From Armatimonadota bacterium (GTDB lineage: Bacteria > Armatimonadota > Armatimonadia > Armatimonadales > Capsulimonadaceae): a stretch of DNA of 50,633 nucleotides. Below the pieces are notes generated by a model that had not been told where the DNA came from, did not search any database, and saw only the letters and a list, made by a program, of their open reading frames with translations. The stretch is from positions 1 through 50,633 of the forward strand of contig JANXMY010000081.1 in the NCBI GenBank assembly GCA_025354405.1. Direction: 5' to 3'. This document shows, piece after piece, positions 1,060-33,813 of the stretch (its first letter is position 1; each line of letters opens with the position of its first letter). Made by a program: the position numbers and the translations under genes.

Positions 1060-1662
1060 ATGGACTATGATGTACGCCTCGGCCTGACGCCGACCGACCT
1101 GCAGCTTCGCGAAATCCAGACCAAGCGTCCCGATGAATGGGTGGATTTGAACCCAGATGACTGCGTTGAGCTTCGCTTGATTCAGGAACAGTTCCCTGGC
1201 TCGGTCGTCCAAACCCGCCTGTTTCGAGGCGAGAAGACCATAGTCATTCGTAAAGATAATATTGTCGGTATCTGTCTTATGCTGCGGGACAGCCCGGAGA
1301 CAAACTACAATTATCTTTCTGACCTCACCTGTTTTGACCGATTGGATATCATGGCAGAGGATGCGGGTGAACTTCGATTCGAGGTTATCTATAACCTATA
1401 CTCGATGGGAACATTCCAGCGTCTGCGGCTGAAGGCTCAGGTAGACGAAGACGACGCTGCTATTGATACGGTCGAGATTATCTGGCCGAATGCCAATTGG
1501 AATGAGCGCGAAGTCTACGATATGTTCGGGATCTCGTTCAACAATCATTCAGATATGCGCCGCATCTTGATGCCGGACGATTGGATTGGTCATCCGCTTC
1601 GAAAAGACTTTCCCCTGGGCGGCGAAGAGATCGAGTTTACACATAACGTTCGAGCGCAATAG
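1060..1662 (+). CDS. nuoC: NADH-quinone oxidoreductase subunit C
   Basis: The 30-kDa-type subunit of the hydrophilic arm that packs against NuoD near the quinone site. The 200-aa product has the family signature in its C-terminal part: a NWNEREVYDMFGI segment (about 146-158) followed by RRILMPDDWIGHPLRKDFP (about 168-186). It is separate from nuoD, not fused to it as in enterobacteria. An AGGTG ribosome site precedes the ATG, and the gene ends 12 nt before nuoD. Confidence 0.94.
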   Translation: MDYDVRLGLTPTDLQLREIQTKRPDEWVDLNPDDCVELRLIQEQFPGSVVQTRLFRGEKTIVIRKDNIVGICLMLRDSPETNYNYLSDLTCFDRLDIMAEDAGELRFEVIYNLYSMGTFQRLRLKAQVDEDDAAIDTVEIIWPNANWNEREVYDMFGISFNNHSDMRRILMPDDWIGHPLRKDFPLGGEEIEFTHNVRAQ

Positions 1663-11279: not shown

Positions 11280-11585
11280 ATGCCCATCCCTCTTGACTAC
11301 TACTTGATACTCAGTGCCGCGCTTTTCACGATTGGTGTGGTGGGTGTGCTAATTAAACGAAACCCAATCGTCATCTTCATGTGCGTTGAGCTGATGCTAA
11401 ACGCCGTCAATTTAACCTTTGTCGCCTTTTCTCGCTACCACAGCGATATCGGCGGGCAGATGATGGTGATTTTTGTAATGGCGGTCGCCGCCGCTGAAGT
11501 CGCCGTTGGCCTCGGGATTCTTGTCTCAATCTTCCGCAACCGTGCCTCGATCAATGTCGACGAAATTGATTTGATGAAGGGGTAA
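11280..11585 (+). CDS. nuoK: NADH-quinone oxidoreductase subunit K
   Basis: Three-helix membrane subunit (101 aa), with the family signature [18 protein letters not shown] (about 31-48), containing the conserved membrane Glu of helix 2, and a second Glu in [11 protein letters not shown]. The Leu of LNAVN in this conserved stretch is encoded by CTA (11397-11399), so CTA is read as Leu in this organism, which bears on the odd tRNA at 33687. It ends 47 nt before nuoL, a gap that contains a terminator-like hairpin. Confidence 0.95.
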
Positions 11586-11632: not shown

Positions 11633-13699
11633 ATGCCGCATTCTGACCCGACCTTACTTTACGCCTGGCTTATTCCGCTATTTCCACTGGTAGGCTTTCT
11701 CATCAACGGTTTTCTCAGCCCGATTGCTGGCAAGCCGCTGCCAAAAGCTCTGGCCGGTGGCTTGGCGACAGTCGCCGTCTTCTCTTCGTTCGCCGTTGCA
11801 GTCATGCTGTTTCTGCATGTCCTCTCCGCCGATGCTGCTCATAAGCAGGCAACGGTGTTTCTGGCACCCTGGATGCATGTGCCGTCGATAGCTGCTGAGG
11901 GTGTGCATGGCTTCACGATTAACTTCGAAATGTTAATTGACCCGCTCTCCGTGCTGATGATGCTCATTATCACCGGGGTCGGTGGCCTAATTCACCTCTA
12001 CTCGATGGGCTATATGGCTGCCGATAAAGGCTACCAGCGGTTTTTCACCTACCTCAACCTATTTATCTTCTTCATGCTGCTGCTGGTAACCAGTAACAAC
12101 CTCCCGATGCTCTTTATCGGCTGGGAAGGCGTTGGCCTCTGCTCTTACCTGCTTATCGGTTTCTTCTACGAAAAGAAGTCGGCAGGCGATGCAGCGAAGA
12201 AGGCTTTTATCGTCAACCGAATTGGTGATGTGGGCGTCTTGATCGGCATGTTCTTCCTATTCCACTATTTCGGAACCCTGGACTTTATCACCGGGCAGAG
12301 CGGCGTAACGGGGATGACTGAAGCCGCACCGGCACTGGTCGCGGCGGCTTCGACCACGGTTGTTACGACACTGCTGCTGATGATCTTCCTGGGATGCACG
12401 GGCAAATCGGCACAGATCCCACTTTACACTTGGCTCCCGGATGCAATGGAAGGTCCGACCCCAGTTTCCGCACTGATTCATGCCGCGACGATGGTCACGG
12501 CGGGCATTTACCTGCTTTCACGGATGCACACACTTTTCATCCTCTCCGATGTGGCGATGGTGACGATTGCAGTGACAGGTATTGCGACTGCGCTCTTTGC
12601 CGCATCGATTGGTCTGATGCAGAACGACATCAAGCGCGTCCTGGCTTACTCCACTATCTCCCAGCTTGGTTATATGTTTGCGGCCTGCGGGGCAGGGGTT
12701 TTTGCGGCGGGCATGTTTCACGTCATGACGCATGCGTTCTTCAAAGCCTGCCTCTTCCTGGGTTCCGGCTCAGTCATTCATGCTGTAGAGCATGCGATGC
12801 ATGCCGCGCATGATAACGATCACGCCCCAGCAGACGGTCTTGACCCAAATGATCCGCAGGATATGCGAAATATGGGCGGACTGTTTCCGCGCATTAAAGT
12901 CACTGCCGTCTGTATGATTGCGGCGACGGCAGCGATCTGCGGAATCTGGCCATTCGCCGGATACTACAGCAAAGATGAAATCCTGTTTCGCGACTGGGCA
13001 ACAATGGTGCATGGCGACTGGCTATTCTGGGGCGTTGGCTTTTTGACCGCTCTGCTGACGGCATTCTATATGGTGCGAATGGTGATGAAGACATTCTTCG
13101 GTGCACCGCGCACGACTGCGGCCAAAAACGCACATGAGTCTGGCCCATTGATGCTGATTCCAATCGGTGTTTTAGCCGTTCTCTCGTTAATCGCCGGGTG
13201 GCCGATCCTGCCGCTGAACTTCGAAAAGTTCAGCGAGTTTTTGGCGCCTTCAGTTGGTGTGACGCCCGCTGCAAACCCGCTAGTTGAATCAGAGCTTGGC
13301 CTTGGGACCTTAGCGGCGATTGCACTAGTAATCGTCTACTGTATCTTCCGGTATCGTTCGACAAAAAACAATGAGCTGATGGCCCCTGATGCACGGGCGA
13401 ATCGGGCCTTCCTCAGCCCAGGCTGGCTGAACTGGGCGATCCTCAATAAGTATTTCGTCGACGAAGCCTACAACTTCTGGTTCGTGCGGCAGGGCAAGAT
13501 ATTCTCACAGTGGCTCTGGCGCAAGTTTGACCTCGAAGGCGTAGACGGCATAGTCAACGGGGTGGGGGCATTGACTGCCTGGTCGGGGCAGCGCGTTCGC
13601 CGCTTCCAGAACGGCTATGTGCGTTCGTATGCATTCTCGATGGTGGTCGGTATCCTCCTCGTTTTGATCGGCTGTCTGGTCGGGATCGGGCATAAGTAA
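11633..13699 (+). CDS. nuoL: NADH-quinone oxidoreductase subunit L
   Basis: Largest antiporter-like proton-pumping subunit. The 688-aa product has the FIGWEGVGLCSYLLIGF helix with its pump Glu (about 162-178), the LPDAMEGPTPVSALIHAATMV segment (about 264-284) and ends in a long lateral helix and C-terminal anchor, explaining its length compared with NuoM and NuoN. A variable loop rich in His, Asp and Asn (about 385-410) follows helix 11. It begins after the internal hairpin, with GGAG as ribosome site, and ends 6 nt before nuoM. Confidence 0.95.
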   Translation: MPHSDPTLLYAWLIPLFPLVGFLINGFLSPIAGKPLPKALAGGLATVAVFSSFAVAVMLFLHVLSADAAHKQATVFLAPWMHVPSIAAEGVHGFTINFEMLIDPLSVLMMLIITGVGGLIHLYSMGYMAADKGYQRFFTYLNLFIFFMLLLVTSNNLPMLFIGWEGVGLCSYLLIGFFYEKKSAGDAAKKAFIVNRIGDVGVLIGMFFLFHYFGTLDFITGQSGVTGMTEAAPALVAAASTTVVTTLLLMIFLGCTGKSAQIPLYTWLPDAMEGPTPVSALIHAATMVTAGIYLLSRMHTLFILSDVAMVTIAVTGIATALFAASIGLMQNDIKRVLAYSTISQLGYMFAACGAGVFAAGMFHVMTHAFFKACLFLGSGSVIHAVEHAMHAAHDNDHAPADGLDPNDPQDMRNMGGLFPRIKVTAVCMIAATAAICGIWPFAGYYSKDEILFRDWATMVHGDWLFWGVGFLTALLTAFYMVRMVMKTFFGAPRTTAAKNAHESGPLMLIPIGVLAVLSLIAGWPILPLNFEKFSEFLAPSVGVTPAANPLVESELGLGTLAAIALVIVYCIFRYRSTKNNELMAPDARANRAFLSPGWLNWAILNKYFVDEAYNFWFVRQGKIFSQWLWRKFDLEGVDGIVNGVGALTAWSGQRVRRFQNGYVRSYAFSMVVGILLVLIGCLVGIGHK

Positions 13700-33490: not shown

Positions 33491-33525
33491 AAAAAAACAG
33501 CCGCCCTTGTGGGGACGGCTGTTTT
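33491..33525 (-). terminator. Strong intrinsic terminator after the tRNA pair
   Basis: On the - strand AAAACAGCCG and CGGCTGTTTT make a 10-bp stem, followed by a run of seven T residues (33497-33491). It ends transcription of the tRNA genes but is positioned directly before the glycerate kinase start codon. Confidence 0.8.
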
Positions 33526-33531
33526 CGGGAA

Positions 33532-33602
33532 GCGGGAGACCAGGCTCGAACTGGCGACATTCTCGTTGGCAACGAGACATTCTACCACTGAATTACTCCC
33601 GC
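33532..33602 (-). tRNA. tRNA-Gly (anticodon GCC)
   Basis: The 71-nt sequence folds as a full cloverleaf: acceptor GCGGGAG pairing with the 3' CTCCCGC, anticodon stem CTCGT/ACGAG with loop TTGCCAA giving anticodon GCC, and a T-arm with GTTCGAGC. The 3' CCA is not encoded. It is transcribed with the upstream tRNA-like gene from the promoter at 33784-33813. Confidence 0.95.
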
Positions 33603-33686
33603 AGGGGAATGGCTGAACAAAAATAGTATAGCCTGTATTGATACCGTTTGTCAAGGGATGCGCGGATATCATCTGTTGAATAAAAT

Positions 33687-33763
33687 TGGTGCCTTCCATC
33701 GGATTCGAACCGACACTGTATGCGGCCTAAACGCATTCTCTCTACCAATTGGAGTAGGAAGGC
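33687..33763 (-). tRNA. tRNA with anticodon UAG (Leu codon CUA/CUN) but a short variable arm
   Basis: 77 nt with encoded CCA (33687-33689) and discriminator A. The stems are good: acceptor GCCTTCC/GGAAGGC, anticodon stem ATGCG/CGCAT with loop TTTAGGC (anticodon UAG, G37), T-stem GTCGG/CCGAT with TTCGAAT loop, and a D-loop with GG. The variable region is just 5 nt (ACAGT), whereas bacterial tRNA-Leu normally has a long type II arm. The D-stem is probably only 3 bp. CTA is evidently read as Leu here (for example in conserved nuoK), but whether this tRNA carries Leu is not known. It and tRNA-Gly share a promoter. Confidence 0.8.
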
Positions 33764-33783: not shown

Positions 33784-33813
33784 AGTATATCCAAGGTAGA
33801 GCTCTTGTGTCAA
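33784..33813 (-). promoter_or_regulatory. Promoter of the two tRNA genes
   Basis: On the - strand TTGACA (33813-33808) and TATACT (33789-33784) are spaced 18 nt, with the first tRNA base 20 nt downstream. This is a good consensus promoter for a stable-RNA unit. Confidence 0.7.

Follow-up and report, generated by a model that had tools for sequence, protein, structure and literature searches.

Bacterial tRNA-Leu is, by the textbook rule, always of class II, with a long variable arm. The window analyzed here, a stretch of 50,633 nucleotides from a member of the Armatimonadota (family Capsulimonadaceae), carries a gene for a tRNA with the leucine anticodon UAG and a short variable region, which contradicts this rule. 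The locus thus raises the question of whether this gene encodes a functional leucine tRNA, how it relates to the class II tRNA-Leu(UAG) of related bacteria, and where it came from. In the following, G000 designates the genome of the window, G001 that of a second species of the genus, and G004 that of one further genus of the same family.

Structure and conservation of the tRNA gene

The features of the locus are as follows.

33687..33763, minus strand: class I tRNA-Leu(UAG) with encoded CCA (ARAGORN, Rfam, covariation in 15 homologues, conservation in G001 and G004)
33784..33813, minus strand: predicted sigma-70-type promoter of tRNA-Leu, TTGACA, 18 nt, TATACT (consensus scan, 11/12 matches)
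33531..33602, minus strand: tRNA-Gly(GCC), downstream partner of tRNA-Leu(UAG) (ARAGORN and Rfam; paired with class II Leu in most relatives)
33625..33654, minus strand: promoter-like site of tRNA-Gly, TTGACA, 18 nt, TATACT (consensus scan, 11/12 matches)
33493..33526, minus strand: intrinsic-terminator-like hairpin 3′ of tRNA-Gly (14 pairs and a T run)

ARAGORN called a tRNA-Leu(tag) at 33687-33763 on the minus strand, and the Rfam model RF00005 matched positions 33690-33763 with 50.9 bits (E value of 4e-8; gathering score of 29). Read 5′ to 3′, the tRNA is GCCUUCC UA CUC CAAUUGGUAGA GAG A AUGCG UUUAGGC CGCAU ACAGU GUCGG UUCGAAU CCGAU GGAAGGC A CCA. Its cloverleaf comprises a 7-bp acceptor stem, a 3-bp D stem (CUC/GAG), and 5-bp anticodon and T stems; the variable region (ACAGU) has 5 nt, as in class I tRNAs, compared with the 10 nt or more of a class II arm. 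The anticodon UAG is followed by G at position 37, the discriminator is A73, and CCA is encoded; anticodon and A73 are those of a leucine tRNA. Positions 13 and 22 form a C·A opposition and an extra A20a is present, which, with the 3-bp D stem, is the D-arm design of tRNA-Leu. The D-arm motif CCAAY(Y)GGYAGAG and residues U8, A14, A15, A20a, and U48 are likewise present and are invariant or nearly so across the class I alignment. Anticodon, G37, discriminator, CCA, variable region, and D stem had all been described in an earlier sequence-only reading of this DNA, and ARAGORN, Rfam, and covariation bear that description out.

In 15 class I tRNA-Leu(UAG) sequences from bacteria and phages, standard pairs occupied 99.3% of the pair cells, with all four helices holding, compared with a mean of 65% for shuffled controls and 35 to 46% for slid structures. 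Of the 20 pairs, 17 show two-sided changes, among them two of the three in the D stem; with such covariation across homologues, a chance folding can be dismissed. In G001, where the flanks have diverged, the tRNA is 100% identical; in G004, the identity is 89%. The encoded CCA is not kept in these relatives, both of which have CAC followed by other bases. A pseudogene or false positive, for which nothing beyond the short arm would speak, is scarcely credible in view of the intact and covarying stems, the conservation in the congener amid diverged flanks, and the promoter. The hexamers TTGACA and TATACT recur in front of the class I gene of G001 and G004, and G002 has them ahead of its class II gene; the window gene would be transcribed from its own, strong sigma-70 promoter.

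Position of the gene in the phylum

The gene is part of an otherwise conserved tRNA-Leu(UAG)-tRNA-Gly(GCC) pair and occupies the position that the resident class II gene holds in relatives, a circumstance that the sequence-only reading had missed. The ordinary class II tRNA-Leu(UAG) of the phylum, which starts with GGGCGAG, usually lies directly upstream of tRNA-Gly(GCC). In G000, G001, and G004, this position is held by the class I gene, at a distance from tRNA-Gly(GCC) of 84 bp, approximately 1.1 kb (with an ORF in between), and 32 bp, respectively. The intervening ORF of G001 (about 340 aa; L045:720-1770) has membrane-like segments and is absent from the window. grpE is located upstream of the pair both in G002, G003, and G006, with a class II leucine gene, and in G004, with the class I gene. 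Outside the order, Lys(CTT), Leu(UAG), Gly(GCC), and tig (trigger factor) follow one another in both G034 and G029, the leucine gene being of class II in the former and of class I in the latter; in G022, the class I Leu(UAG) gene is followed by Gly(GCC) and trigger factor, and the gene upstream is shared with G036. The shared neighbors (grpE; Lys(CTT) and tig) support orthology between the places of the class I and class II genes.

Searches with a class II model and patterns recovered the class II tRNA-Leu(UAG) in 48 of 61 genomes of the phylum. By the same searches, it was not found in G000, G001, G004, G022, G029, and G036, which are the six genomes with a class I UAG gene outside tRNA arrays, nor in G012, G024, G040, G047, G048, G051, and G060, which have no stand-alone class I gene. 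Where the class I UAG gene occurs in an array only, the class II gene is retained (G002, G007, G010, and G011), with the exception of G060. The best class II match in G000, G001, and G004 was tRNA-Leu(CAG) with 70 to 71 bits, compared with 88 to 104 bits for true UAG genes of the order. A search around the class I gene revealed no remnant of a class II gene. As class I genes hold the class II place in two or more unrelated families as well, replacement in place probably occurred at least twice and perhaps three times.

The tRNA-Leu set of the genome

Among the 44 tRNA matches of G000, there was no second tRNA-Leu(UAG), and the class II model and patterns were negative as well; a normal tRNA-Leu(UAG) elsewhere in the genome, which the earlier reading had named as a potential argument against its own proposal, was thus searched for and not found. 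The other tRNA-Leu genes found (CAA, CAG, and GAG) are all of class II. With CAG and GAG as the only other CUN readers found, the window tRNA is the sole reader of CUA found in this draft assembly, which is 96% complete.

tRNA-Leu(UAA) of either class was not found in G000 or G001 even though TTA is in use (72 codons in the genes of the window), and some tRNA genes must therefore be missing from the assemblies. This bears on the alternative that these genomes do possess a normal class II tRNA-Leu(UAG), which the drafts lack, the class I tRNA being an extra one, as where an array-borne class I gene coexists with class II. Such coexistence is seen in G002, G007, G010, and G011, and G000, G001, and G004 are draft metagenome-assembled genomes of 93 to 96% completeness. 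However, the class II gene is absent from all three assemblies, and its usual place is held by the class I gene in each, which makes this alternative unlikely.

Several further observations concern the tRNA complement of these genomes. The tRNA-Leu(UAA) found in G004 is of class I and lies within a tRNA array. More than 20 tRNA genes are crowded into an array of G004 (contig C342; L066/L073), one of them for a 74-nt tRNA called Ser(aga) that lacks a long arm. G022 and G036 (L069, L070, L054, and L057) possess class I tRNA-Leu genes for all five leucine anticodons, with GAG, CAA, CAG, and UAA in arrays and UAG standing alone, i.e., a near-complete second set of leucine tRNAs. In G000, a tRNA-like match (L043; C102:44732-44808; 42.7 bits) was assigned to Arg or Glu, its two-base anticodon being doubtful, and is possibly a degenerate tRNA. 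In 2 of the 61 genomes, which represent two related genera, class II tRNA-Leu(UAA) has about 50 nt inserted behind U34 of its anticodon loop (L427:185-316, G010:C194; L428:169-299, minus strand, G017:C693). The insert resembles a mini-tRNA, with an acceptor-like stem (CGGGAG/CTCCCG) and two hairpins, one small and one like a T arm, and its removal restores a perfect anticodon arm. The position after U34 is where the group I intron is known to reside; the insert is much too short to be such an intron. An intron-bearing gene as the reason for the missing tRNA-Leu(UAA) of G000 was rejected, the insert motif occurring only in G010 and G017.

Decoding of CUA and predicted recognition by LeuRS

tRNA-Thr/Ala(UAG) recodes CUN in yeast and Ashbya mitochondria, and the sequence-only reading had considered a recoded tRNA or ambiguity at CUA; it had also noted CTA at conserved leucine positions of nuoK and nuoL. 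CTA accounts for 63 of the 1,426 leucine codons in the genes of the window. The following codons are informative.

11397..11399, plus strand: CTA codon, NuoK residue 40, Leu in 13/13 orthologues
11987..11989, plus strand: CTA codon, NuoL residue 119, Leu in 13/13 orthologues
12059..12061, plus strand: CTA codon, NuoL residue 143, Leu in 13/13 orthologues
1396..1398, plus strand: CTA codon, NuoC residue 113, Leu in 8/8 orthologues

The nuoK and nuoL positions thus proved to be leucine throughout. Across the nuo operon, for which up to 13 orthologues were compared, the CTA columns contain 57% Leu, like those of CTC, CTT, and TTG, which is not the placement at non-leucine positions expected for a reassigned mitochondrial-type tRNA(UAG). 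As CTA is placed on invariant leucines, no recoding is indicated; judged from these codon columns, CUA is leucine in this genome. Only the unusual shape of the tRNA would favor reassignment of CUA to another amino acid or its ambiguous reading, which the codon columns, the leucine determinants described below, and the absence of the alanine pair G3-U70 (positions 3 and 70 are C-G) render extremely improbable.

In E. coli, LeuRS recognizes A73, A14, A15-U48, G18G19, A20a, and contacts between the D and T loops, and neither the long arm nor the anticodon; tRNAs from which the long arm has been cut are still charged (PMC9976931). A73, A14, A15-U48, G18G19, and A20a are all present in the window tRNA and invariant or nearly so in the 15 class I tRNAs. 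Each genome has one full-length LeuRS gene, and a special second LeuRS was rejected on these grounds. The LeuRS of G000 is 76% identical to that of G002, which uses a class II tRNA-Leu(UAG), and is no more deviant than the enzymes of other class II users. The window tRNA would be charged with leucine by this single, ordinary LeuRS via A73 and the D-loop/T-loop core, and would read CUA, and possibly other CUN codons, as leucine.

Kinship with phage and array tRNAs

The window tRNA was ranked by similarity against 1,353 distinct tRNAs, a pool in which most of the phylum was represented by its class II UAG genes. The 76 nearest were all short tRNA-Leu, led by the window gene itself and two orthologues from the family, and the best class II tRNA-Leu ranked only 207th even at lenient gap costs; this ranking is biased toward class I, because a class I motif had been used to retrieve many of the loci compared. 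The closest sequence outside the family was a tRNA-Leu of the Pseudomonas putida phage vB_PpuM-Amme-3 (61 of 74 positions identical), followed by a tRNA cluster of the Chthonomonadaceae (L117) and another phage. No close match was found in plasmids.

The acceptor stem GCCUUCC differs from the GGGCGAG of the class II UAG gene, and positions 9 to 13 and the D stem are also unlike class II; these three regions agree with the class I tRNAs of phages and arrays (61/74 and 58/74 positions identical overall). This agreement makes loss of the arm from the resident gene less likely than its replacement. Deletion of the variable arm in place, which would turn a class II gene into class I with no foreign gene involved, would account for the same locus, the same anticodon, the promoter hexamers common to the class II gene of G002, and a D arm of the Leu type (3-bp stem and A20a). 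We regard it as improbable, given the class I character of these regions and the lack of any class II tRNA-Leu among the 200 nearest tRNAs.

Replacement by an acquired gene, and thus the suggestion of the sequence-only reading that the tRNA is acquired, for example from a phage, or a rare class I tRNA-Leu, is supported as regards class I and probable as regards acquisition from phages or arrays. A possible route is tRNA-dependent lysogeny, in which a phage breaks a host tRNA gene and supplies its own (PMC10865867). Followed by decay of the prophage, it would explain a newcomer at an old place. No integrase was recognized among the ORFs of the window, inspected by eye, or at the locus, nor was there a class II remnant that could represent a broken host tRNA gene; such traces could have disappeared if the event is old.

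Taken together, it is quite probable that the window gene is an acquired class I tRNA-Leu(UAG) with its own promoter, which is charged by LeuRS, reads CUA, and has displaced the resident class II gene in place. The gene would descend from the class I tRNA-Leu stock of tRNA arrays and phages, and the displacement upstream of tRNA-Gly(GCC) would date to the common ancestor of this genus and a second one in the family. For the phylum as a whole, we lean toward the view that, in at least two and probably three lineages, class I tRNAs of the phage or array type have supplanted the resident class II tRNA-Leu(UAG), which is presumably essential, at its own locus; the sole CUA reader there would then be a tRNA of foreign type.

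Distribution of class I tRNA-Leu

Bacterial genomes and viral contigs were scanned with a DNA pattern for tRNAs that have the D-arm motif of Leu, either UAA or UAG as anticodon, and 5 nt in the variable loop. It matched at least 119 stretches of bacterial genomes and at least 120 of viral contigs. According to ARAGORN, the matches listed comprise at least 101 UAA and at least 19 UAG tRNAs in genomes and at least 77 UAA and at least 47 UAG tRNAs in viral contigs. The possibility that these are tRNA-Lys(CTT) genes miscalled by a one-base shift was rejected, as ARAGORN assigned every match listed to tRNA-Leu. Most of the genome matches listed are from Actinomycetota with a single chromosomal gene, and others lie in tRNA arrays, e.g., a 26-tRNA array of Cylindrospermum. 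In the phylum of the window, a class I gene model detected class I tRNA-Leu for each of the five leucine anticodons, and arrays hold most of these genes. In two complete mycobacterial chromosomes with class I UAA, one class II UAG gene was found, and an exact pattern found no class II UAA. The assertion of the sequence-only reading that all bacterial tRNA-Leu are normally class II is therefore wrong, since class I genes are carried by phages, by bacterial tRNA arrays, and by the chromosomes of many actinobacteria.

Few publications mention such tRNAs. In members of the Mycobacterium mucogenicum clade, a tRNA-Leu(TAG) whose variable loop is short was described in 2019 from a tRNA cluster, beside the normal chromosomal one (PMC6582537). 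For M. tuberculosis, a long loop is ascribed to tRNA-Leu 2, 3, and 5 (PMC11541572), so that by implication the remaining ones lack it. How widely short-armed tRNA-Leu occurs seems to have received little attention in the open literature searched. Class I tRNA-Leu is thus a widespread, little-discussed kind of tRNA, for which the displacement of a resident isoacceptor in place is a less usual role. These genes are natural examples of a dispensable long arm, in agreement with the biochemistry of E. coli LeuRS, and annotation rules that require a long arm for Leu would misjudge them. A foreign-type tRNA gene that has apparently taken over a presumably essential decoding role at a resident locus also bears on the fates of phage and array tRNAs.

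Comparison with known systems

Relative to the canonical class II tRNA-Leu(UAG) of the phylum (GGGCGAG...), the window tRNA has the same decoding role, genomic place, and LeuRS determinants, whereas the class II tRNA has a long variable arm and different acceptor and D stems. The phage vB_PpuM-Amme-3 tRNA-Leu(UAG) (PP496413, 91642-91718) shares, besides its overall identity, the D-arm pattern and nearly the same anticodon arm; it is located in a phage tRNA cluster, and its acceptor stem is unlike that of the window tRNA. The cluster tRNA-Leu(TAG) of M. mucogenicum/phocaicum (PMC6582537) resembles the window tRNA in its UAG anticodon, short variable loop, and kinship with array class I tRNAs, but it is an extra array gene in strains that keep the long-loop isoacceptor, whereas the window gene stands alone beside tRNA-Gly(GCC), with no long-arm copy found. 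Metazoan mitochondrial tRNA-Leu without a long arm derives its leucine identity from A73 and A14 (PMC9976931), like the window tRNA, but is organellar and of separate origin. The chromosomal class I tRNA-Leu of actinobacteria (UAA, some UAG) is similar to the window tRNA in its 5-nt variable loop, the CCAAYYGGYAGAG motif, and its occurrence as a single chromosomal gene; it mostly has the other anticodon, however, and looks like the normal state of that group rather than a recent replacement.
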